DNA from: Halodesulfovibrio aestuarii DSM 17919 = ATCC 29578
Lineage (GTDB): Bacteria; Desulfobacterota; Desulfovibrionia; Desulfovibrionales; Desulfovibrionaceae
Direction of reading: 5' to 3'
DNA length: 64,000 nt
Assembly (NCBI RefSeq): GCF_000384815.1
Contig: NZ_ARQF01000016.1
Coordinates: 62,001 to 126,000 of the forward strand
The position numbers and the translations under genes were made by a program. The notes below the pieces were generated by a model. That model searched no databases and was not told the DNA's origin. It worked only from the letters and a program-made list of their open reading frames with translations. Shown in pieces: positions 7,428 through 27,654 of this stretch. Each line of letters starts with the position of its first letter. The stretch's first letter is position 1.

Positions 7428-7455
7428 AAAAAAAGCCGACAATGTCGGCTTTTTC
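7428..7455 (-). terminator. Intrinsic terminator of the solute-binding/deaminase-like gene
   Basis: On the minus strand AAAGCCGAC and GTCGGCTTT form a stem around a 3-base loop, followed by seven Ts. It lies about 30 bases after the stop of the gene at 7485. Confidence 0.85.
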
Positions 7456-7484: not shown

Positions 7485-8645
7485 TTAATCGTAGGTAAAA
7501 CCTTTGTTACCAGACAAAATCGGGTACGGTAACAACCGGGACACCATGATCATTTTCACATCGCCTTTATCCGGCTCAACAGCCGCAAGGATTCCACGCC
7601 CGAACTCAAACAGAAACTGCCTATCTTCAGCAGTCGGGGCAACAACAGAACCATCAGGAGCCAATGCTACTACAGCACGGAAGTCGTACTCGCCGTCTGC
7701 AATTGCTTTAAGCATTGCAGTCTTAATGGCAGAAACATTTTCCTTAGCAGTCTCTACGTTACATCCCACATAGGTTTTGCCGGAACGAGTCAGCACTGCC
7801 GCGCCTACAGGAACTTTAGAATATGGCGCATACGCGTTTACTGCAGCTTCGGAAGCTGCTTCGAACAGCTTGTTCAATTCATCTTCATATAATTCAGGAA
7901 CAAACCATTTTCGGTAAATTCTATCATATTCGCCTGTAGCAACGACACGCTGGAAACCTTTGTTTACCATTTCCAGAATACGTCCTTTATCACGGTTAAC
8001 CGCGACAAAGGATTCTGTAACACGCAAAAGACTGCCCACCGCACTAACTTCACCGTATTTAAAGCGCTTCAGATAGTAGTATGCTGTCTCCTCCGGCCCA
8101 CAATACGCTTGTACTTCGTCACGACCAAGAGCATGGATTGCATCAACCATTGTGACGAATGGCTTAACATTCATTCCGCCAAACTCTTCGAGAACGCGCT
8201 GCTGGAACGACCCACGTTTTACAGACACCTTCTGCCCACGCAACAAGGTAACGTTCCCGACTCTGTTTGGAGTTTTGGTAAACAGACGAATCTTCATCGG
8301 TAACGTCGGTTTCTCTGAAAAATGGAAGAGCAGACTACGCTGCTTTGTTTTTGCCATACCTGTGGTCAAATCAATTGCGCCGGAAGAAAGTTCCATAAGC
8401 ACATGATCCCAAACAAGAGGACGTGTAACCAGCTTAACGTTCTGGCCTTTAAATATGGCGCGAATTAAGTCAACATCAAAGCCAACAGCCTTTCCTTTTG
8501 CTTCTTCAAAAGAAAATGGCGGGAACTCCCTGTCAAAGCCATATGTAACTCTAATTGGCGCTTCTGCGTATGCCTGAGGCACAACAACAAAAGAAAATAC
8601 ACTCAGGGCAATGCCCAAAAAAACAGCTAAAAATCGACAGCGCAT
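7485..8645 (-). CDS. Secreted solute-binding protein fused to a catalytically dead cytidine-deaminase-like domain
   Basis: A 386-residue protein with three parts. Residues 1-28 are a signal peptide ending in AYAEA. Residues 29-250 are a family-3 solute-binding domain (YGFDREFPPFSF, VGFDVDLI, ending GEYDRIYRKWF). Residues 255-380 align along their length with cytidine deaminase: AYAPYSKVPVGAAVLT, GCNVETA, DFRAVV, RQFLFEFG, LLPYPI. By comparison with human CDA, zinc ligands C65, C99 and C102 become S305, T338 and D341, and catalytic E67 becomes I307. The ribose contacts N54 and E56 are kept as N296 and E298. I infer a periplasmic pseudoenzyme that may bind a pyrimidine nucleoside. The start at 8645 is chosen for the AGGAGA ribosome site and the signal peptide; an upstream in-frame start at 8840 would bury the signal peptide. 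Confidence 0.88.
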   Translation of the reverse strand: MRCRFLAVFLGIALSVFSFVVVPQAYAEAPIRVTYGFDREFPPFSFEEAKGKAVGFDVDLIRAIFKGQNVKLVTRPLVWDHVLMELSSGAIDLTTGMAKTKQRSLLFHFSEKPTLPMKIRLFTKTPNRVGNVTLLRGQKVSVKRGSFQQRVLEEFGGMNVKPFVTMVDAIHALGRDEVQAYCGPEETAYYYLKRFKYGEVSAVGSLLRVTESFVAVNRDKGRILEMVNKGFQRVVATGEYDRIYRKWFVPELYEDELNKLFEAASEAAVNAYAPYSKVPVGAAVLTRSGKTYVGCNVETAKENVSAIKTAMLKAIADGEYDFRAVVALAPDGSVVAPTAEDRQFLFEFGRGILAAVEPDKGDVKMIMVSRLLPYPILSGNKGFTYD

Positions 8646-8842: not shown

Positions 8843-9637
8843 TTAATTCTTTTTCAAGATCTCAATCAGCTGTTCAACCTTTGCACGGTCACTTTTGTAT
8901 ACTTCCGAAGCGTACTGCTTAATGAGAGATGACACCTTATTTCTTTTATCCAGCTTTGCTTTGAGCGCTGGAAGTTCCGGAAGCACCATTCCGGAAAATT
9001 CCTCACACGGAACAAATGTCAGACACATATCCTCTCCGGGGATGCATCCGGCCTTGCTGTTCACTGCTCCGACCGCTTTCTGTTTAGCCACCTTGTCCAC
9101 ATCCATCCCGCGTACGACACTGAGAACCTGTGACGGAGAGTGATCCCGATTAACTTTAGCAATGTGCTCGTTCAACTCAGTGCACCATTCCATGTATCGA
9201 TAGAATCCCGTTGTCTTACCATACTTTTCTAAGGAACCCTTTTTTTCATACAGCGTGCCATGCAAAAAAAACTCAAAGGCGTTACGCATACGTTCATATG
9301 TTTCAAGAACACACTTTTCGTACCGCCCCTCTGCTGTGAAGGCAAAAGGCAACTTCATACTCAGCCAAGGATCGGCAGACTCTACACGAGGCAAAAAGTC
9401 AACCGGCACACCAAGTACATATAACAGCCCTTCCATATTATGTTCACTGGTCAACAATGCCATCAACTGAGCACAGATAGTTAACGCGCGCTGTTCCGCC
9501 AGTCTGATATCGCTTTCGACGCGCTCAAAAAATTCACGTTCGTCATCAATAGCCTTACGCGCACCAAAGTACCCGTTGGCGATATCCACCATAACCTCGC
9601 CCTTCAAGGATGCCGAAAGAGACTGAAAATCTGTCAC
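8843..9637 (-). CDS. Conserved-looking protein of unknown function
   Basis: A 264-residue soluble protein that I do not recognise. It has no signal peptide or membrane helix and looks largely helical, with a Lys-rich C-terminus. A central segment has three cysteines (AGCIPGEDMCLTFVPCEEF), which could bind metal, but no known motif is matched. The start is GTG with a strong AGGAGG ribosome site. It lies 198 bases upstream of the solute-binding/deaminase-like gene on the same strand with no clear terminator between, so they may share a transcript. Confidence 0.75.
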   Translation of the reverse strand: MTDFQSLSASLKGEVMVDIANGYFGARKAIDDEREFFERVESDIRLAEQRALTICAQLMALLTSEHNMEGLLYVLGVPVDFLPRVESADPWLSMKLPFAFTAEGRYEKCVLETYERMRNAFEFFLHGTLYEKKGSLEKYGKTTGFYRYMEWCTELNEHIAKVNRDHSPSQVLSVVRGMDVDKVAKQKAVGAVNSKAGCIPGEDMCLTFVPCEEFSGMVLPELPALKAKLDKRNKVSSLIKQYASEVYKSDRAKVEQLIEILKKN

Positions 9638-14404: not shown

Positions 14405-15646
14405 CTATGCGCGTTGTTTAGGTAGAATGAGGTTCAGTACAATACCTATGATACCGGCAAGACCGATACCTTTAAGACTGAAGGCTCCAGCGCTGAAGCT
14501 CATACCGCCAACGCCAAAAATCAAAATTACAGCGATAATTGTAAGGTTGCGAGGCTCCATAAGATCCTGACCGGCACGAACAAGAGAGTTCATACCTACA
14601 ACAACAATGGTACCGAAAAGCAGAACAAGAATACCACCCATTACTGGAAGTGGAATTGTTCCAAGGAGAGCACCAAGTTTACCAACGAATGCCAGACAGA
14701 TAGCTATAATGGAAGCCCATGTCATGATACCCGGGTTAAAAGATTTAGTCAGTGCAACAGCACCGGTTACTTCCGAATAGGTAGTGTTAGGAGGCCCGCC
14801 GAGCAGAGAAGCAAAAGTTGTAGCAATACCATCACCAAACATTGTACGATGAACGCCCGGTTCTTTAATATAGTTTTTACCCGTCACAGCCCCGATAGCG
14901 AGAACATCACCTACATGCTCAATAGCAGGAGCAATTGCAACCGGTACTATGTACAGAACAGCTTCCCAGTTCCATTCAGGGGTCACAAAATTAGGTACTG
15001 CAAACCACGGAGCATTCATAACTGGAGTAAAATCCACGATCCCGTAAGCCAGGCTTAAAGAATAACCAACGACAATACCACACAGAATAGGTATCAGTCT
15101 GAGCAGTCCTTTACCGCACAAGGAGACCAGAATAGTCGTACCAAGGGATGCCATAGAAATAACAAGAGCAGTAGATTCCGGAACAAGCTGAAGAGCACCG
15201 TCACCAGTTTTACCCAGCGCATTGAATACAGCCACATTAGCAAGCATAAGGCCGATAACCATAACGATTGGGCCGGTTATGGTAGTAGGCAATACACGTT
15301 CAAGAATCTGTGGACCCTGAATCTTGATAAGAAGTGCGAGCCCCATGTACAGAAAACCGGAAGCAGCAAGGCCACACATAGTCGCCGGAATACCCCAAGT
15401 CTGCACGCCGTAAATAATTGGTGCGATAAACGCAAAAGAAGATGCAAGAAAGATTGGTACAGAACGTTTCGTAACAAGCTGGAACAGCAATGTTCCCACA
15501 CCGGCGGTAAAGAACGCCACGTTTGGGTTAAGTCCTGTGAGCAGCGGAACAAGCACAAGAGCACCAAATGCTACAAACAGCATCTGCGCGCCAAGAAGGC
15601 AATCTTTAAGCCTAAAAGAGTATTCCGTATTTCCGTTTGACACCAT
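14405..15646 (-). CDS. uraA: Uracil permease (NCS2/UraA family)
   Basis: A 413-residue polytopic transporter of the nucleobase-ascorbate (NAT/NCS2) family with about 14 membrane segments. The N-terminus AQMLFVAFGALVLVPLLTGL and the first half (SSFAFIAPIIYGVQTWG) match uracil/H+ symporters. Substrate-site glutamates are visible in PAIEHVGDVLAIG and in GGPPNTTYSEVTGAV. An AGGAGG site is 1-2 bases before the ATG. Uracil specificity is supported by upp directly upstream on the same strand (194-base gap with terminator-like structures). Confidence 0.92.
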   Translation of the reverse strand: MVSNGNTEYSFRLKDCLLGAQMLFVAFGALVLVPLLTGLNPNVAFFTAGVGTLLFQLVTKRSVPIFLASSFAFIAPIIYGVQTWGIPATMCGLAASGFLYMGLALLIKIQGPQILERVLPTTITGPIVMVIGLMLANVAVFNALGKTGDGALQLVPESTALVISMASLGTTILVSLCGKGLLRLIPILCGIVVGYSLSLAYGIVDFTPVMNAPWFAVPNFVTPEWNWEAVLYIVPVAIAPAIEHVGDVLAIGAVTGKNYIKEPGVHRTMFGDGIATTFASLLGGPPNTTYSEVTGAVALTKSFNPGIMTWASIIAICLAFVGKLGALLGTIPLPVMGGILVLLFGTIVVVGMNSLVRAGQDLMEPRNLTIIAVILIFGVGGMSFSAGAFSLKGIGLAGIIGIVLNLILPKQRA

Positions 15647-15687
15647 TCCCTCCTACTGTGAGTTTTTATAACTCATTTCTCAAACAA

Positions 15688-15728
15688 TTAGCGCAACACT
15701 TTGATATAAAACACTATATCTGCGCTAA
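15688..15728 (-). repeat. Inverted repeat in the uraA leader
   Basis: TTAGCGCA and TGCGCTAA form perfect 8-base arms that enclose a second pair (GATATA/TATATC). In RNA it would form a stem-loop about 40 bases upstream of the uraA ribosome site. A smaller GAGTT/AACTC hairpin lies between it and the AGGAGG. Confidence 0.55.
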
Positions 15729-15746
15729 ACCATATCCTGACCGCCC

Positions 15747-15816
15747 AAAAAAAGAGCATCCTCCCCCCAAATCCACTGCTTTAAAAAAGCAGAACCAGAG
15801 GGGGTCAAATGCTCTT
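15747..15816 (-). terminator. Extended terminator/attenuator between upp and uraA
   Basis: On the minus strand three nested stems can form: AAGAGCAT/ATGCTCTT outside, CCCCCTC/GGGGGG in the middle and CTGCTTT/AAAGCAG at the tip, followed by seven Ts. It lies 25 bases after the upp stop. It could end most upp transcripts or control read-through into uraA. Confidence 0.75.
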
Positions 15817-15840
15817 CCCGTTCAAAAACGGATCGAAACG

Positions 15841-16467
15841 CTATTTGGTTCCGAAAATCTTATCACCAGCGTCGCCAAGACCTGGTAAAATATATCCATG
15901 CTCATTGAGTCGTTCATCCACAGATGCAGTGTAAATATCTACGTCAGGATGCGCTGCAACAACGCGTTCAACACCTTCAGGTGCTGCAACGAGGAACAGC
16001 CCGATAATTCTTTTACATCCAGCTTTTTTGAGCAAATCGATGGTAGCAATGAGAGTACCACCGGTTGCAAGCATAGGATCCAGAATAATTGCCGTGCGCT
16101 CTTCAATGTTTTTAGCGAGCTTAACGTAGTATTCTTCAGGCTCAAGAGTTTCTTCATTACGGAACATACCAACAACGCTAACTTTAACGCCTGGGATCAT
16201 ATCCATAATACCGTCCAGCATACCAATGCCGGCACGGAGAATTGGAACTACGGTAGCTTTCTTTCCTTTAATCTGGTCTACTTCTACAGAACCAGCCCAT
16301 CCTTCGATGGTGCATTTCTCAGTTTCGAGATTTTTGGTTGCTTCATAGGTAAGAAGACGACAAATTTCATTGGAAAGTGCACGGAATTCTGCAACAGAAA
16401 TGTTTGCTTCACGAATTCGTCCGAGTTTATGTTTGACCAGCGGGTGGTCAACCACGTAAACAGCCAC
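15841..16467 (-). CDS. upp: Uracil phosphoribosyltransferase
   Basis: A 208-residue UPRTase converting uracil and PRPP to UMP in pyrimidine salvage. The PRPP-binding loop is [13 protein letters not shown], a [14 protein letters not shown] segment is present, and the uracil-binding C-terminus is [18 protein letters not shown]. The start is GTG at 16467 with AAGGAGG five bases upstream; an ATG two bases earlier is out of frame. A terminator-like hairpin and a good promoter lie directly upstream (see separate entries), which suggests pyrimidine-dependent control. Confidence 0.96.
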
Positions 16468-16588: not shown

Positions 16589-18190
16589 ATGACAACACCC
16601 GAAGAATACAGTGAATTTCCCCATTTTACGCATAGCGTCCCAGCAAATATTGATGGTGTCAGACTTGACAAACATCTTGGTGATTTTCTTAAAAATGAAG
16701 TAGTTAGCAGGGAAAAAATAAAAAAACTAATTAAAGACGGTTTTGTGACAATTAATGAAAAAAAATGTACAAAGCCTAACACTAAAGTTTTTTCAGGTAT
16801 GAAAATATCAGTAACCATACCTGAAGTGCAAAACGAACTCATCCCGGAAGAAGGTGATATTAATATCCTTCACCGTGATGATGACCTCATTGTCATCAAC
16901 AAAGAAGCGGGTCTTACAGTACACCCGTGTCCAAGCTGTCCGGAAGGAACTCTCGTACATCGCCTTGCGCATTCCATTCCTGAAATCACAAAGATGGAAG
17001 GATTCCGTCCCGGTATCGTTCATAGGATCGACAAGGACACCTCAGGACTTCTTATTGTCGCACTCAATGAAAAAACTCGCCTTGCCCTTTCAGAAGCTTT
17101 TGCGGCGCGTACCATTTCGAAAGAATATCTTGCTATTGTCCACGGCACCCCGCCTGAGTCCGGCGAAATCAAAGAACCTGTCGGTCGTGACCCAAAAATG
17201 AAAATTCGTATGGCAGTTGTGCCTAATGCAAAGGAAGCACATTCTGCGTACCGGACACTCTACTCCGACCCCAAGGGCAAATTTTCACTCGTCGCTATTA
17301 AAATCTTCACAGGCAGAACACACCAGATTCGAGTGCATATGAGCCATCTAGGCTACCCGCTATGGGGAGACACGCTATACGGCGGTGGTGTCAAAGAGGA
17401 TTCCCCGTTGGCACCTTTTGCCTCCCGTCAAATGCTGCATGCATGGAAACTCAATTTTGAGCATCCAACAACCAAGAAACAAATGTCCTTCACGTGCCAG
17501 CCGCCACAGGACTTTATAGCACTTATCGAACGTCTGACTCTTGCGGTACAACGAGTGGCTCTTACCGGTATGCCGGGCTGCGGCAAATCTGTAGTTCTTT
17601 CTGCTCTTGCAGAAAAAGGCATTGCCACATGGAGCGCGGATGCTGTCGTTCATAAATTATATGAAAACGGTGCAGACGGCTGGTATGTACTCCGCGGGCG
17701 CTTCGGCTCTGAGGTTTCTCCCGACGACGGCCCTGTGAACCGCAAAGCGCTTTTCGCCCGTATGCAGAAAAAAAAATCTAACCGGAACGAAGTGGAACAA
17801 CTTGTTCATCCGCTCATTTTGCATGACCTTATGCTCTTCTGGCAGGAACATGCAGCCGACCCGTTTGCTGTGGCTGAAATTCCACTGCTCCATGAATCAC
17901 ATTGGGATCGCGAAGTGGATATTGTTGCCGGAATCCGTTGCAGCGAAGACTCACGCCAGAACAGGCTGCAGGAAATTCGGGGCTGGAACGATGATCTCAT
18001 TGCTACCATGGACTCGTGGCAATGGGCAGAAGATGATAAGATGAAAGCGTGTCATATTATTCTTGAGAACAATGGCTCACTTGAAGAACTCAACAACGCA
18101 GTAGATAAATTCATTGAGGCGATTATGCGTGTCCGCGCTAAAAAATTACAACAGACTGTAGAAGCTATTACTACTCTGTGGAGCGAATAG
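16589..18190 (+). CDS. RluD-type pseudouridine synthase fused to dephospho-CoA kinase
   Basis: A 533-residue two-enzyme fusion. Residues about 20-85 are an S4 RNA-binding domain (VRLDKHLGDFL), and about 95-320 an RluA/RluD-family pseudouridine synthase with the catalytic Asp in HRIDKDTSGLL and the GRTHQIRVHM segment. From about residue 328 the sequence is CoaE: P-loop ALTGMPGCGKSVV, SADAVVHKLYENG, DGPVNRKALFARM and VAEIPLLHE. CoaE makes the last step of CoA synthesis and is essential, and no other coaE is seen here. The ATG at 16589 lacks a clear ribosome site, and the first 200 bases are AT-richer than the rest. The domains keep their active-site residues. Confidence 0.9.
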   Translation: MTTPEEYSEFPHFTHSVPANIDGVRLDKHLGDFLKNEVVSREKIKKLIKDGFVTINEKKCTKPNTKVFSGMKISVTIPEVQNELIPEEGDINILHRDDDLIVINKEAGLTVHPCPSCPEGTLVHRLAHSIPEITKMEGFRPGIVHRIDKDTSGLLIVALNEKTRLALSEAFAARTISKEYLAIVHGTPPESGEIKEPVGRDPKMKIRMAVVPNAKEAHSAYRTLYSDPKGKFSLVAIKIFTGRTHQIRVHMSHLGYPLWGDTLYGGGVKEDSPLAPFASRQMLHAWKLNFEHPTTKKQMSFTCQPPQDFIALIERLTLAVQRVALTGMPGCGKSVVLSALAEKGIATWSADAVVHKLYENGADGWYVLRGRFGSEVSPDDGPVNRKALFARMQKKKSNRNEVEQLVHPLILHDLMLFWQEHAADPFAVAEIPLLHESHWDREVDIVAGIRCSEDSRQNRLQEIRGWNDDLIATMDSWQWAEDDKMKACHIILENNGSLEELNNAVDKFIEAIMRVRAKKLQQTVEAITTLWSE

Positions 18191-21751: not shown

Positions 21752-24700
21752 TTATGCGGAAAGTCTCTCTACTCCCGCTTCAAGTTCTTCCAATAACGCT
21801 AATGCATTTTCAAAATCATAGTCACGCACCATACCGGCCATATTACGGACAAGCTCCTGTAAATCAGGGTCGCCTCCCATATGATGCTGAATATCTTCAA
21901 TCAAATCCACAGCCTCTGTATCATCATCATCCAACAAGTTACGTAATTGTACCAATTCCCTCTCTATTACCTCTTTCGAGAGCTGAACATCAGAAACAAT
22001 AGGAGTAAGTACAAGTTTATTGCGGATATCATTTACGGTTGCAGCCAAAGTAGCATCAAGAGAATTAACTAATTGGCGCTGCATGGCAGGGGCATTATCC
22101 GCCATAATGTTTGCTTCCAGTTCTGTAGCAAGCTTCTGAATCCTCGTTGCACCAATATTACCCGCAACACCTCTAAGAGTATGTGCCTGCCTGCTTGCCG
22201 CTTCAATATCGCCTCGCTGCAATGCTTCGCTTATAACAGCGATGTCATCTGCCTGTATTTCAGCAAAACGTACTAACAACCGCCGCAACAAATCTTTGTT
22301 TTGCTGGCAAATGGACAAGCCTTTTTCAACATCCACACCGATAATATCCGGTAACTCATCACCCGAGTCGGAATCCTCTACACTCACCTGTACAGCCAGT
22401 TTAGGCGTAATCCAGCGTGCCATTTTTGAAAACATGTCAAGAAGTTCCAGCGGCTTGGAAATATGGTCATTCATGCCGACTGCAAGTACTTTTCTTCTAT
22501 CTCCAACCATCGCATTTGCTGTCATCGCAATAACTGGCAATGCAGCAAAACGAGGATCTTCCCGCAGCCTACGGGTTGCTTCATATCCGTCCATCACCGG
22601 CATCTGACAGTCCATCAAAACACCGTCGAATGATTTTTCTTCCAGAATATCCAAGGCTTCCTGTCCATTTGTAGCAACAGTAACCGCCATTCCGTTAGAC
22701 TCAAGCAGTTCAACAGCAAGTTCCTGGTTCACCTCATTATCTTCAACTAACAAGATAACCGCACCGGCTAGGTGCTGTACGGCTGCATTAATAGCACGTT
22801 TACGCCCTGTATTACGCTTTTCGGTCACATTCGGCACGCCTTTAATGGAAGCAATCGCCTGCAGCAATGGATTCTTAGTTAATGGCTTAGTTACACAGGC
22901 ATCAATAATACCCTGCTCCGCTGCATCCGTTGCGGCTTCACGACCAAAAGCTGTTACCATGATCAAATCCGGACAATGGTCTGGCCCATACTGTTCTTTG
23001 ATCAACGTCGCTGTAGTGATGCCATCCATATCCGGCATACGCCAGTCAAGGAAGATCATTTCATACTCTTCTGCCTTTACAGACTGTTTGACCATTTCGA
23101 CAGCGTCCATGCCGCATTCTACTGCATCAGCTATATATCCGAGTTCAGTTAACAGCGAACAAAGAATCTCACGCGATGTTTTACTGTCGTCGACCACAAG
23201 CACGCGAGCACCGTCAGACAATGTAATCGGTATTGGCTCTTCCAGTTCATTGACTTTCAAACGCACGTTAAAGGAGAAGGTTGCCCCTTTCCCGTATTCG
23301 CTTTCAACCCAGATCTCTCCCCCCATTAACTGGGCAAGTCTGCGGGAAATAACAAGCCCAAGGCCTGTTCCGCCATATCTTCTGGTCGTCGAGGTATCTG
23401 CCTGAGAAAAAGATTTAAACAGCTTAAAAATCTGTTCGCTATTCATACCAATACCGGTGTCCTGAACAGAGAATAACAGTGTTATCTCACTAGCATTTAA
23501 ATCTTCTATCTCAATTGTAACGACAACCTCACCTTCTTCTGTAAACTTAACCGCATTGTTACCGAGGTTGATCAAGATTTGTCTCAGGCGCATCGGGTCA
23601 CCGATCAGCTTTCCCGGAACCTCAGGACAAACTTTAAAAAGCAATTCAAGTCCCTTTTCCTCAGCCTTCAGTCCCACAACCCCAGCGACATCCTGCATTA
23701 CATCTTCAAGATAGAAAGGCACCTCTTCTATCTCCATTTTGCCAGCCTCAATCTTAGAAAAATCAAGAATGTCGTTAATGATGCCGAGCAATGAATACGC
23801 AGCCCTGTGTACTTTTTCGATGAAGTTGCGCTGACGTCTGGTCAACTCTGACTGTAATGCAAGGTGGGACATGCCAAGAATTGCGTTCATCGGAGTGCGG
23901 ATTTCGTGGCTCATATTCGCCAAAAATTCGCTTTTTGCGTTAGACGCCTCTTCCGCTGTAATTTTTGCAGATTCGAGTTCCTGTTCCATCCGCTTACGCT
24001 GTGTAATATCTGTAAATACAATTACACAGCCTTGAATTTCCTCTTCATTGATAATGGAGCGACACGAAAATTCCACAGGAAAGGTATGGCCTGACTTTGT
24101 TTGAAAAAATTCATTTTGATCAGTGGTCATCTGCCCGAAATATAAGGCGTTATAGATAGAGGCCTGAAGGAGACAACAGGTCTTACATTCATCAGCACAA
24201 AACCAAATATTCTCAAGAATCTTTTTGCCGACAATGTCATCATCAGTATAGCCAAGCAACGACAAGGCAGCATCATTCGCAAAAACAACCTCTCCTTGCC
24301 TGTTGAACCCCAGAAGCCCCTGACCGACAGATGTCAAAATCAAACGCCATTGCTTTTCAAGCTCCTGCAGATCCTGTGTCCGGTCAAGAACCTTACCCTC
24401 TAACTCTTCTTTGGACTGCAACAGGCTTATATTAGCTTTTCTGCCAAGGTGTAGGGTGAACAAAATGGACGGAATAGTAAACGAAAGCATAAGGAGCATG
24501 ATGACAACCACACTATACTTTAACCGCGTATACTGTTCTAACAAGTCTCCTGCACGAACTTCAGCAACCAGTCCGATATTCAGCCCGGGGATCCAGCGAG
24601 CCAGTCCGTACACTTTTTCATTGCGAGCATTGCGATATCTGACAATACGCATTCCGGACTGTTTGGATACGTCATCCATTTTTTCAACAGCAAAAGGAAC

Positions 24701-26752
24701 ATCACCCCCTACAAACGCGCTCAAATAATTCTTCGAAAGATCTTCATCCACGGATGCCCCTGGAGTGCTCCGCGTATATAAAACTTGCCCCTTCCGGTTA
24801 ACGGCAAAAATTTCACTCTGCTGTTTTGCAATATCCTCTTTTATTGATGAAAAGTAGAAACTATCATCAGCATCAATCTGAGCTGCAATAACCGCTATAG
24901 GCTTTCGTTTAGAATTTATAACAGGCATAAGCAGAAACGTCCTACGTTCGTTTAGCCCTGTTTCGGGGTCTGCATAATGGCAGGGAGGAACAAACACGGT
25001 CTGTCCTGCAAGAGCTTTCTGAAATAACTCAAAGTGTCGTTTTACCATACTCGAGTACTGGTCCTTTTCATCTCCGACGAGCAGCTCCCCCGTTACAGAC
25101 AGTAACGCTCTGGAATTCTCTCCCGAAAGGACTCCATATTCTTTCCAGTAATCTTCTAACGAATGCAACGCACGCGTATACTCTAAAGAATCTCTGTTGT
25201 CCGAAAGAGATGTCACATGATCAACAAGTGCAAAAAACAAGGGTCTACCTATCATGTACTGAAGAATATGCGAATGCACGTCAATCAGACGCAGCAACCG
25301 GGACTCGGTAACCTCAAGTCTTTCTTCTAAAAAATGCTCTTCTTTCTGAAGAATATCTTTCTTGCTCTCTGACAAAATGAACCATGACGTTCCGAAACAG
25401 AACAATACAAACAGTGCAATGGCAATCCACAGTGCCCGTGCAAAATTAAACGAACCGAGGACAAGCCCTTCAGTATGTTTTGTATGTTTGTTCAATTCGC
25501 GGCCAATAAAAAACAATGAACACAAAAAAACAAGAAACAACACAAACAACAACGCTATGCTTCTTTCGAAAGAATTTTTTACAGGCTGGTGTTGCATCAC
25601 TGCATTGGGTGAAAGGACGTAATTCTGTACTATTTCATTTTTTTCAGCCGCGGTTAGTGAAGAAAGCATTTTTTCTGTAATAGAATACAGATACGGTTCA
25701 CTTTTGCTTGTCATAAACTGCAAAGGCTGAGGTGTGAACTCTTCTTGAGGGATAGCCCTTATACCGGTTAACGAATTTTCTTTTTGCGCATACAGAACCG
25801 CCATATGGGCATCCAACAACGCATCAACGTCATTATTTAATACTGCGGCAATGGCGTCGACCAAACTGGGCATCAAAACCATATTAATACCGGGGAAGCG
25901 TCTTGGGAGTAACTCTTCCATAAGATACCCTTCCACTACAGCAACTCGTTTCCCGCGCAGGTCACTCATGTTCCTTATGGAATAGTCGTCCTGCCTGACA
26001 AACAAAAAATCTCGAACAGTCATAAAAGGCGTTGTAAAATCCCCATAACGTTCGAGAGATGAATGATAGTACATGTCAGGAATAAGATCGATTTCACCCC
26101 GTTTAAACTTATCCAGAAGCTCAGAAAAAGTTCCTCCGATAAATTTGAAACGTATAGGAAACTGCTTGAACATTTTCGCCATGAGATCAACAGCAATACC
26201 TCTGGGCTCACCATTAGAAGCAAAGAAGTTAAAAGGCGGCCACTGTTCTATACCAACACGTATTACTGGATTTTGTTTTACCCATTGTTTTTCTTCATCT
26301 GTCAGCAGTACCCCTCTGTCGCTGGCAGGCCCAGCGGGAAGAGCTTGATAATAGAGCTCCAGCCTACCAATTGTGCTGTCGTTATAGACAATTGATGCCG
26401 TATACTTAGGATATTGCTCTGCAGATACTGGAATTTTTTTATTAAAAACAGGCTCTTGGCGAAAACTGAAGTAGGTAAAAAAAGGCTCATTGGTAACGGT
26501 ATCTACAACCCGTAAAGCCTTAATCTGCGGTGTTCTTTTAATTATGACAGAAAGCATTCCCTCTAGTTGTCTGTCATCAAGATTATACAAAAAGACTGCG
26601 CTTATCTGCGATAACTCTGTCGCAAGATCTGAACCATTTTGAGCAGCTCTAACGATAACATCGTCTGAATGTGCTTCGGCAACAGAGACAGGCGCAACAA
26701 GCATAATAAGCACAACTGCCCACATAAAAAGACTTTCAAAATATTTTTTCAA
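21752..26752 (-). CDS. Large hybrid sensor histidine kinase (BvgS/EvgS-like plus Cache sensor)
   Basis: A 1,666-residue phosphorelay kinase. Order: signal peptide (1-27); an uncharacterised periplasmic part (30-140); a family-3 solute-binding domain (about 150-385); membrane helices near 398-418 and 440-462; a second periplasmic sensor of Cache type (about 465-750); a helix near 755-785; PAS (about 805-920); HisKA with H949 in [11 protein letters not shown]; HATPase ([22 protein letters not shown]); two receivers (acidic pairs near 1188 and 1337, acceptors in MIFLDWRMP and GVLMDCQMP); and an HPt domain with H1524 in QAHTLRG. All relay residues are present. The start is TTG, because it gives a Lys-rich signal-peptide n-region. 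It is upstream of the HD-GYP regulator. Confidence 0.93.
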
Positions 26753-26931: not shown

Positions 26932-27654
26932 CTACTTATAGCACTCAAGGATAGCAGCAAGCCGACCACTGTCTTTCATTCTCTGCAGTGCAGCGTTAAA
27001 TCTTGGGAGTAAAAATTCATACTGCTTATTCAACCGAATAAGCTTTAAATGAGATGAAACTGCCTGCCCTGCAACAATGTTATATGAATGGCCAAGCATG
27101 AGATAACGAAAAATATCATCCGGCATCATAGAATAATGGCAGCGTTTTTTATCTATCATTTGTAAAAGTTGTTCCTCAGAAAGAAAGTTCTGCCGCTCTT
27201 CAAATATATCTGGATAATGAAAACCGAGTATTCCGCAAAACTTGCTCCCAATGGGAATATTTTCCTCTCCATAAAAACGTCCCAGTGCAGCATTAGAGAC
27301 ATAGACGTCCTTGGTCTCCATAAATGAGTCCGTGTATACTGAATTCGTTACTTCAGCCGTCCGTTGCCGCCACTGAGGGCTAATCCCCATTTCCACGTCA
27401 ATCTTACCAACAATCATGTACAGTCTAAGACGCGCTTTGGGCAGAGCCTTATACGAAAAGAAAATTCCTGTTTCTTTCGTAATCTCATCTAAGACATCAA
27501 TAAAAATGCCTTTGTAACCACCAGTGTTATCCTTCCAAAAATATGGTGGCCTATCAGCATTCATCAAGCCTACAACAAGCGAGCACGCATGTGATTCAAC
27601 TGCAAACGTACAGGCATACAGTGCCACCATAAGACACAGCAATAAACGTTTCAT
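26932..27654 (-). CDS. Periplasmic solute-binding protein, family 3 type
   Basis: A 240-residue secreted protein. It has a signal peptide (about 1-23, MKRLLLCLMVALYACTFAVE) and a family-3 solute-binding fold with ADRPPYFWKDNTGGYKGIFIDVLDEI and a C-terminal LQRMKDSGRLAAILECYK. No permease or ATPase gene is nearby, so it may serve in sensing rather than uptake. It lies upstream of the hybrid kinase, whose own sensor has a related domain, with 179 bases between. The ligand is unknown. Confidence 0.85.
   Translation of the reverse strand: MKRLLLCLMVALYACTFAVESHACSLVVGLMNADRPPYFWKDNTGGYKGIFIDVLDEITKETGIFFSYKALPKARLRLYMIVGKIDVEMGISPQWRQRTAEVTNSVYTDSFMETKDVYVSNAALGRFYGEENIPIGSKFCGILGFHYPDIFEERQNFLSEEQLLQMIDKKRCHYSMMPDDIFRYLMLGHSYNIVAGQAVSSHLKLIRLNKQYEFLLPRFNAALQRMKDSGRLAAILECYK

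Follow-up and report, generated by a model that had tools for sequence, protein, structure and literature searches.

Cytidine deaminases (CDAs) of the T-type are homotetramers, and the C-terminal domain of Escherichia coli CDA is a CDA fold without zinc. In two examples of the dimeric-CDA C-terminal domain (PF08211), Ser and Leu stand at the positions of C65 and E67 (human numbering) and Glu at that of E56; this domain sits behind a catalytic-type CDA domain. A dead deaminase-fold domain is also found at the N-terminus of human CDADC1, where the authors assign an architectural role to it; CDADC1 belongs, however, to the dCMP-deaminase branch, is intracellular and has an active partner domain (PMC12088426). 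Exported proteins that join an SBP-derived domain (SBP, solute-binding protein) to a normally cytoplasmic enzyme fold are represented by the chorismate mutase-cyclohexadienyl dehydratase fusions, for which the authors suggest signalling-type roles; both domains are active enzymes, except in TaCMCDT, which is reported to lack CDT activity (PMC10520331).

Here we analyse a protein encoded in a 64,000-nucleotide stretch of Halodesulfovibrio aestuarii DNA (hereafter, the window), in which a signal peptide, a family-3 SBP domain and a CDA fold follow one another. Its C-terminal domain resembles the T-type (tetrameric) CDAs (TIGR01354/PRK05578, 1jtk/1mq0) in fold, length and core motifs, and these are its best sequence and structure matches; unlike them, it lacks zinc ligands and catalytic Glu, has changed base-side Phe residues, is predicted to be exported and lies behind an SBP. 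The contrast with PF08211 is one of context, since domain 1 of the window protein is an SBP. This first domain has its fold and the binding-site Arg, Trp and Asp in common with family-3 amino-acid SBPs (ArgBP, GlnH, ArtJ) and with the histidine-kinase sensor domain 3h7m. Literature searches, with subscription journals mostly outside their coverage, gave no description of an SBP-CDA fusion, in agreement with the original prediction, in which no described family of this kind was known. Our preferred reading, for which we see roughly even chances on the basis of sequence and modelled structure, is that the exported, zinc-free pseudo-CDA would be an architectural, mainly oligomerising module of an orphan receptor-like SBP protein.

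Protein layout and deaminase fold

The fusion-protein gene occupies 7485..8645 on the minus strand (386 aa; ATG at 8645, AGGAG ribosome-binding site, stop at 7485-7487), with the coordinates and content originally reported. Residues 1-28, approximately, form a putative signal peptide (8562..8645, minus strand), recognised from sequence and hydropathy as a hydrophobic helix followed by AYA-EA. The SBP_bac_3 domain covers residues 34-248 (7902..8546, minus strand) and is the strongest Pfam match of the protein (E 1.5e-27, 96.4 bits against a cut-off of 26.4); it keeps D38, F41, W79 and R103, and the amino-group Asp position is P184. The pseudo-cytidine-deaminase domain takes up residues 255-386 (7488..7883, minus strand), with S305, I307, T338 and D341 in place of C65, E67, C99 and C102. 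The closest named records are Halodesulfovibrio proteins, 89-91% identical. A hydrophobic segment precedes the SBP domain in 46/47 fusions vs 2/54 CDAs not fused to an SBP, a call made by hydropathy and not by a dedicated signal-peptide predictor, and this points to an exported protein, as had been claimed.

The proposed CDA fold was supported by both searches and predicted structures. In a phmmer comparison of the last 131 residues with the PDB, Bacillus subtilis CDA (1jtk) was matched at E 1.8e-17 and human CDA (1mq0) at E 2.4e-17. Among Pfam families PF08211 is the top match for the C-terminal domain, and dCMP_cyt_deam_2 matches residues 257-326 (E 2.8e-9). The NCBIfam cytidine deaminase model PRK05578 matches residues 256-374 (E 2.3e-21, 76.2 bits vs a cut-off of 74), while the protein scores 71.9 bits with TIGR01354, under its cut-off of 113.65, and 37.4 bits with the NCBIfam dimeric-CDA model. 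AlphaFold2 returned a pLDDT of 90.0 and a pTM of 0.84 for the whole protein (alignment of 42 sequences from the window and the collected loci), and 90.8 and 0.83, respectively, for the C-terminal domain alone. Foldseek paired the latter with mouse, human and bacterial CDAs and with blasticidin S deaminases, at TMq 0.76-0.84 over the 50 matches listed, and the whole model with ArgBP and glutamine-binding proteins. A chance match is excluded by the E-values together with conservation across 16 genera. The core is not gapless, as first described: two residues are absent between E298 and S305 relative to human and B. subtilis CDA.

Distribution, ancestry and selection

Genome searches covered one phylum. 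With the C-terminal 138 residues as query, 97/348 genomes of the class gave a match, one each, and reading of the open frames placed the SBP-CDA fusion in 47 of the 97; these belong to the window's family and span 16 genera. An SBP part was verified for 46 frames, one of which (L084) is cut by a contig end; the gene of genome G023 is split over two contig ends. Of the other 50 matching genomes, 28 were read: 26 encode a CDA with its catalytic residues complete, and 2 a dimeric CDA. Two of the 26 scanned have their intact CDA domain behind another one, a PNP_UDP_1 phosphorylase domain (L078 3955-5313) or a GrpB domain (L080 2711-3958). At the level of the phylum 33/395 genomes matched; 30 were read, and among them a single fusion came from outside the family, and also from outside the class, that of genome G362 (L141 / L170 9985-11106, minus strand). 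In its class, 63 genomes judged by open-frame length gave no other fusion, and that of G362 was perhaps gained by horizontal transfer.

In a tree built on 139 columns the fusions form one group. The branch uniting all 47 rows has a support of 29, and that of the 46 rows from the window's family a support of 87. The junction R[KR]WF[VI] is conserved in the 46 frames read and is closely similar in G362 (RRWFVPK), whose SBP scores 224.7 bits with a fusion-SBP profile vs 145.5 for an ancestral reconstruction, which came highest among the other SBPs tested. Two independent fusions, one in G362 and one in the rest, are thus not needed to account for the score and the junction, with the branch support for all 47 standing at just 29. 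Two dimeric-CDA C-terminal domains fall on a long separate branch outside the fusion group, deep support in these 139 columns being weak; the tree and the NCBIfam scores of the window protein (tetrameric-type 76.2 and 71.9, dimeric 37.4) do not favour an origin of the fusions from such a domain, and zinc loss in dimeric-CDA C-terminal domains was probably independent of that in the fusions.

Scored with the window protein, unsplit fusions reach at least 237.6 bits and the best other SBP 81.1 (59 relatives, among the matches listed), so within these matches the fused SBP subfamily is not seen without its CDA domain. Plasmid homologues comprise 611 matching records, none over 80% of the query, and the 10 listed match the SBP part alone. 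Both parts of the protein are clearly under purifying selection: in Nei-Gojobori comparisons of the window with five members of the genus, the CDA part has a dN/dS of 0.015-0.035 and the SBP part one of 0.023-0.050, figures that are rough because dS is 0.9-2.4.

The lost zinc site and the two binding sites

Residues were compared in an alignment of 47 fusions (G362 included, L084 omitted) and 54 CDAs without a fused SBP. S305, I307, T338 and D341, as well as N296 and E298, stand at the positions assigned to them in the original prediction, both in this alignment and in the PDB phmmer matches. All 54 unfused CDAs have the three zinc cysteines and the catalytic Glu, and none of the 47 fusions has any of them; all four positions are replaced in the window and in every aligned fusion, none of which has C or H at 305, 338 or 341 or an acid at 307. 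The C65 position holds S or T in 42/47 fusions, the C102 position D or E in 45/47 and the E67 position L or I in 38/47. Since the helices modelled by AlphaFold2, in the whole protein and in the C-terminal domain alone, start at 306 and 339, S305 and T338 would lie at the N-cap and D341 at N3, as in a helix-capping box, and we infer that this box substitutes for zinc. S/T338 occurs together with D/E341 in 30/47 fusions, the full S/T-x-x-D/E box being missing in 17/47. Two further conserved residues are fusion-specific, R350 (39/47) and G351 (41/47), and a pure scaffold leaves their conservation unexplained.

Conservation of the losses, with intact zinc ligands in none of the 47 homologues, and dN/dS rule out a local mutation or a pseudogene. 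That the fusion protein is non-catalytic is well supported by these alignments, and the window protein probably serves in binding or as a scaffold rather than as an enzyme. Annotation software may miscall it. The NCBIfam cytidine deaminase model NF004064 (cut-off 74) was exceeded by the fusion and matched by nothing else at E 0.001 in 10/10 genomes of the genus, three further PF00383 matches in the window's own genome giving no match to it. Among 10 other fusions scanned, six exceed the cut-off (four of the genus, L017 and that of G362) and four fall below. A search of the fusion-carrying genomes found no separate CDA of the T-type. Under the name "cytidine deaminase", a metabolic model would credit a cytidine-salvage step that, judging from its residues, this protein should not perform.

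The old substrate pocket is unevenly preserved. F24 and the Phe of the C-terminal LLPxxF are what we take to be the base-side (base-stacking) positions of CDA, with N54, E56 and A58 as presumed further pocket positions. Phe occupies the F24 position in 1/47 fusions vs 38/54 CDAs (Phe, Tyr or His in 4/47 fusions) and the C-terminal position in 2/47 vs 51/54 (Phe, Tyr or His in 9/47). The N296 position holds N in 29/47 fusions (N, S or T in 43/47) vs 52/54 CDAs, E298 is kept in 45/47 vs 49/54, and A300 in 35/47 fusions. The ribose contacts said to be retained are both present in the window protein, and across homologues E298 is near-invariant while N296 varies. Held more tightly than N296, E298 could mark a ligand site; it can also have a structural role, since both dimeric CDAs examined have the equivalent Glu in their zinc-less C-terminal domains, and its retention alone is no proof of ligand binding. 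With most base-side contacts gone and N296 variable, the residues lend little weight to the pyrimidine-nucleoside binding originally suggested. The fusion of G362 keeps the equivalents of F24, N54, E56, A58 and the C-terminal Phe, its zinc ligands and E67 being gone, which makes ancestral nucleoside binding possible, and the ancestor of the fusions may have bound a nucleoside. From the near-complete pocket of G362 to stripped ones, the fusions offer a natural series for how a metal-less enzyme becomes a scaffold or a sensor.

For the SBP module, the SBP parts of the 46 frames and of G362, 47 in all, were set against 15 references. Of these, 13 were stretches of SBPs found in relatives; the other two were chains of solved structure, one of which is an ancestral reconstruction. 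The fusions keep W79 in 47/47 and D38 and R103 in 46/47 each, R103 presumably being the Arg for the amino acid alpha-carboxylate and position 184 that of the Asp for the alpha-amino group. Unlike family-3 amino-acid SBPs, they have Asp at the latter position in 0/47 (P/A/L/T/Q/M instead; P184 in the window) vs 11/15 references, 2 being gapped, and they carry a CDA fold at the C-terminus. A permease of the PF00528 family (BPD_transp_1) was likewise not found on the window contig (C16, 143,576 bases), the whole of this genome having 32 matches to that family. A hybrid histidine kinase of 1666 aa, also encoded in the window (21752-26752, minus strand), has an SBP_bac_3 sensor domain of its own, and its gene adjoins that of a further SBP_bac_3 protein of 240 aa (26932-27654, minus strand).

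Possible roles and genomic surroundings

If the pseudo-CDA is mainly architectural, as we prefer, a family-3 SBP module with an altered amino-acid site would be permanently joined to a non-enzymatic CDA fold. Zinc would be dispensable in the periplasm, where S305, T338 and D341 would cap the two helices once tied together at their ends by the zinc cysteines, and by analogy to homotetrameric CDAs the domain would most likely be the oligomerising part. The ligand would then sit in the SBP module, probably as a small molecule with a carboxylate group, bound through R103 and W79. Perhaps the pseudo-CDA module binds a ligand too. The original prediction, in a widened form, gives a two-ligand periplasmic sensor whose pseudo-CDA pocket would bind a nucleoside, ribose or nucleotide fragment unconverted and signal to the SBP module, a tentative proposal that we take seriously while thinking it unlikely. 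The persistence of E298 (45/47), A300 (35/47) and N296 (29/47; N/S/T 43/47), the occasional aromatic residue or His at the two base-side positions (4/47 and 9/47), the pocket of G362 and strong purifying selection on the fusion speak for such a sensor; the loss of Phe at those same positions in 46/47 and 45/47, the Glu that persists in the zinc-less domains of two dimeric CDAs, and the scarcity of nearby uraA (3 of 34 loci) and upp (2 of 34), some loci being too short to show them, weigh against it. More doubtful again is a Desulfovibrionaceae two-site receptor in which the zinc-free CDA fold would bind a signal derived from ribose or a nucleotide, to be sensed jointly with a carboxylate in the altered SBP; if true, a core nucleotide-salvage enzyme would have been turned into an extracytoplasmic sensor.

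An SBP of the ordinary transport kind, its CDA-derived C-terminal extension being decorative or in decay, would fit SBP_bac_3 as the strongest Pfam match and the retained carboxylate Arg and aromatic residues. We consider it improbable, for the CDA part is as constrained by dN/dS as the SBP part, it recurs across 16 genera (47 genomes), the R[KR]WF[VI] junction being conserved in the 46 frames read, the amino-group Asp is gone and the contig has no PF00528 match. The preference for D/E at 341 (45/47) and S/T at 305 (42/47) might also suggest an active periplasmic deaminase with different chemistry or another metal, held by Ser, Thr and Asp ligands; helix capping accounts for both patterns, however, and the general acid/base position of E67 is non-acid in 47/47, so that we give this reading hardly any credence. 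Whether mainly architectural, as we prefer, or also ligand-binding, the fusion is a widely conserved exported pseudoenzyme derived from a core pyrimidine-salvage fold and joined to a receptor-like SBP.

Directly behind the fusion gene lies a terminator-like hairpin of 12 pairs with a T run (7429..7455, minus strand, by consensus match), in a region with 8 such sites vs 3.2 in shuffles. Upstream, a co-oriented gene (8843..9637, minus strand) encodes a protein of 264 aa that matches no Pfam or NCBIfam model; its unnamed family is present in 86/149 genomes of the bacterial family. In two genera, g1 and g11, this gene directly adjoins the fusion; by coordinates it lies at most 0.9 kb upstream in g15 and at most 0.2 kb in g16, and it possibly shares an operon with the fusion. 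The fusion could be placed in 26/34 loci, a divergent pncC/cinA-type gene being at most three genes away in 15 of them and a glucokinase gene at most four genes away in 12, a neighbourhood that looks like an old shared locus. A link to the neighbouring chemoreceptor was rejected, given a match in 5/34 loci and a terminator-like site in between. At 6 kb from the fusion, 14405-16467 (minus strand) encodes an NCS2-family nucleobase transporter (uraA, uracil-permease-like) and uracil phosphoribosyltransferase (upp); on the counts given above, a pyrimidine-salvage link through this pair was not retained. At 16589-18190 (plus strand), a single frame of 533 aa encodes an RNA pseudouridylate synthase, S4 domain included, fused to a CoaE dephospho-CoA kinase.
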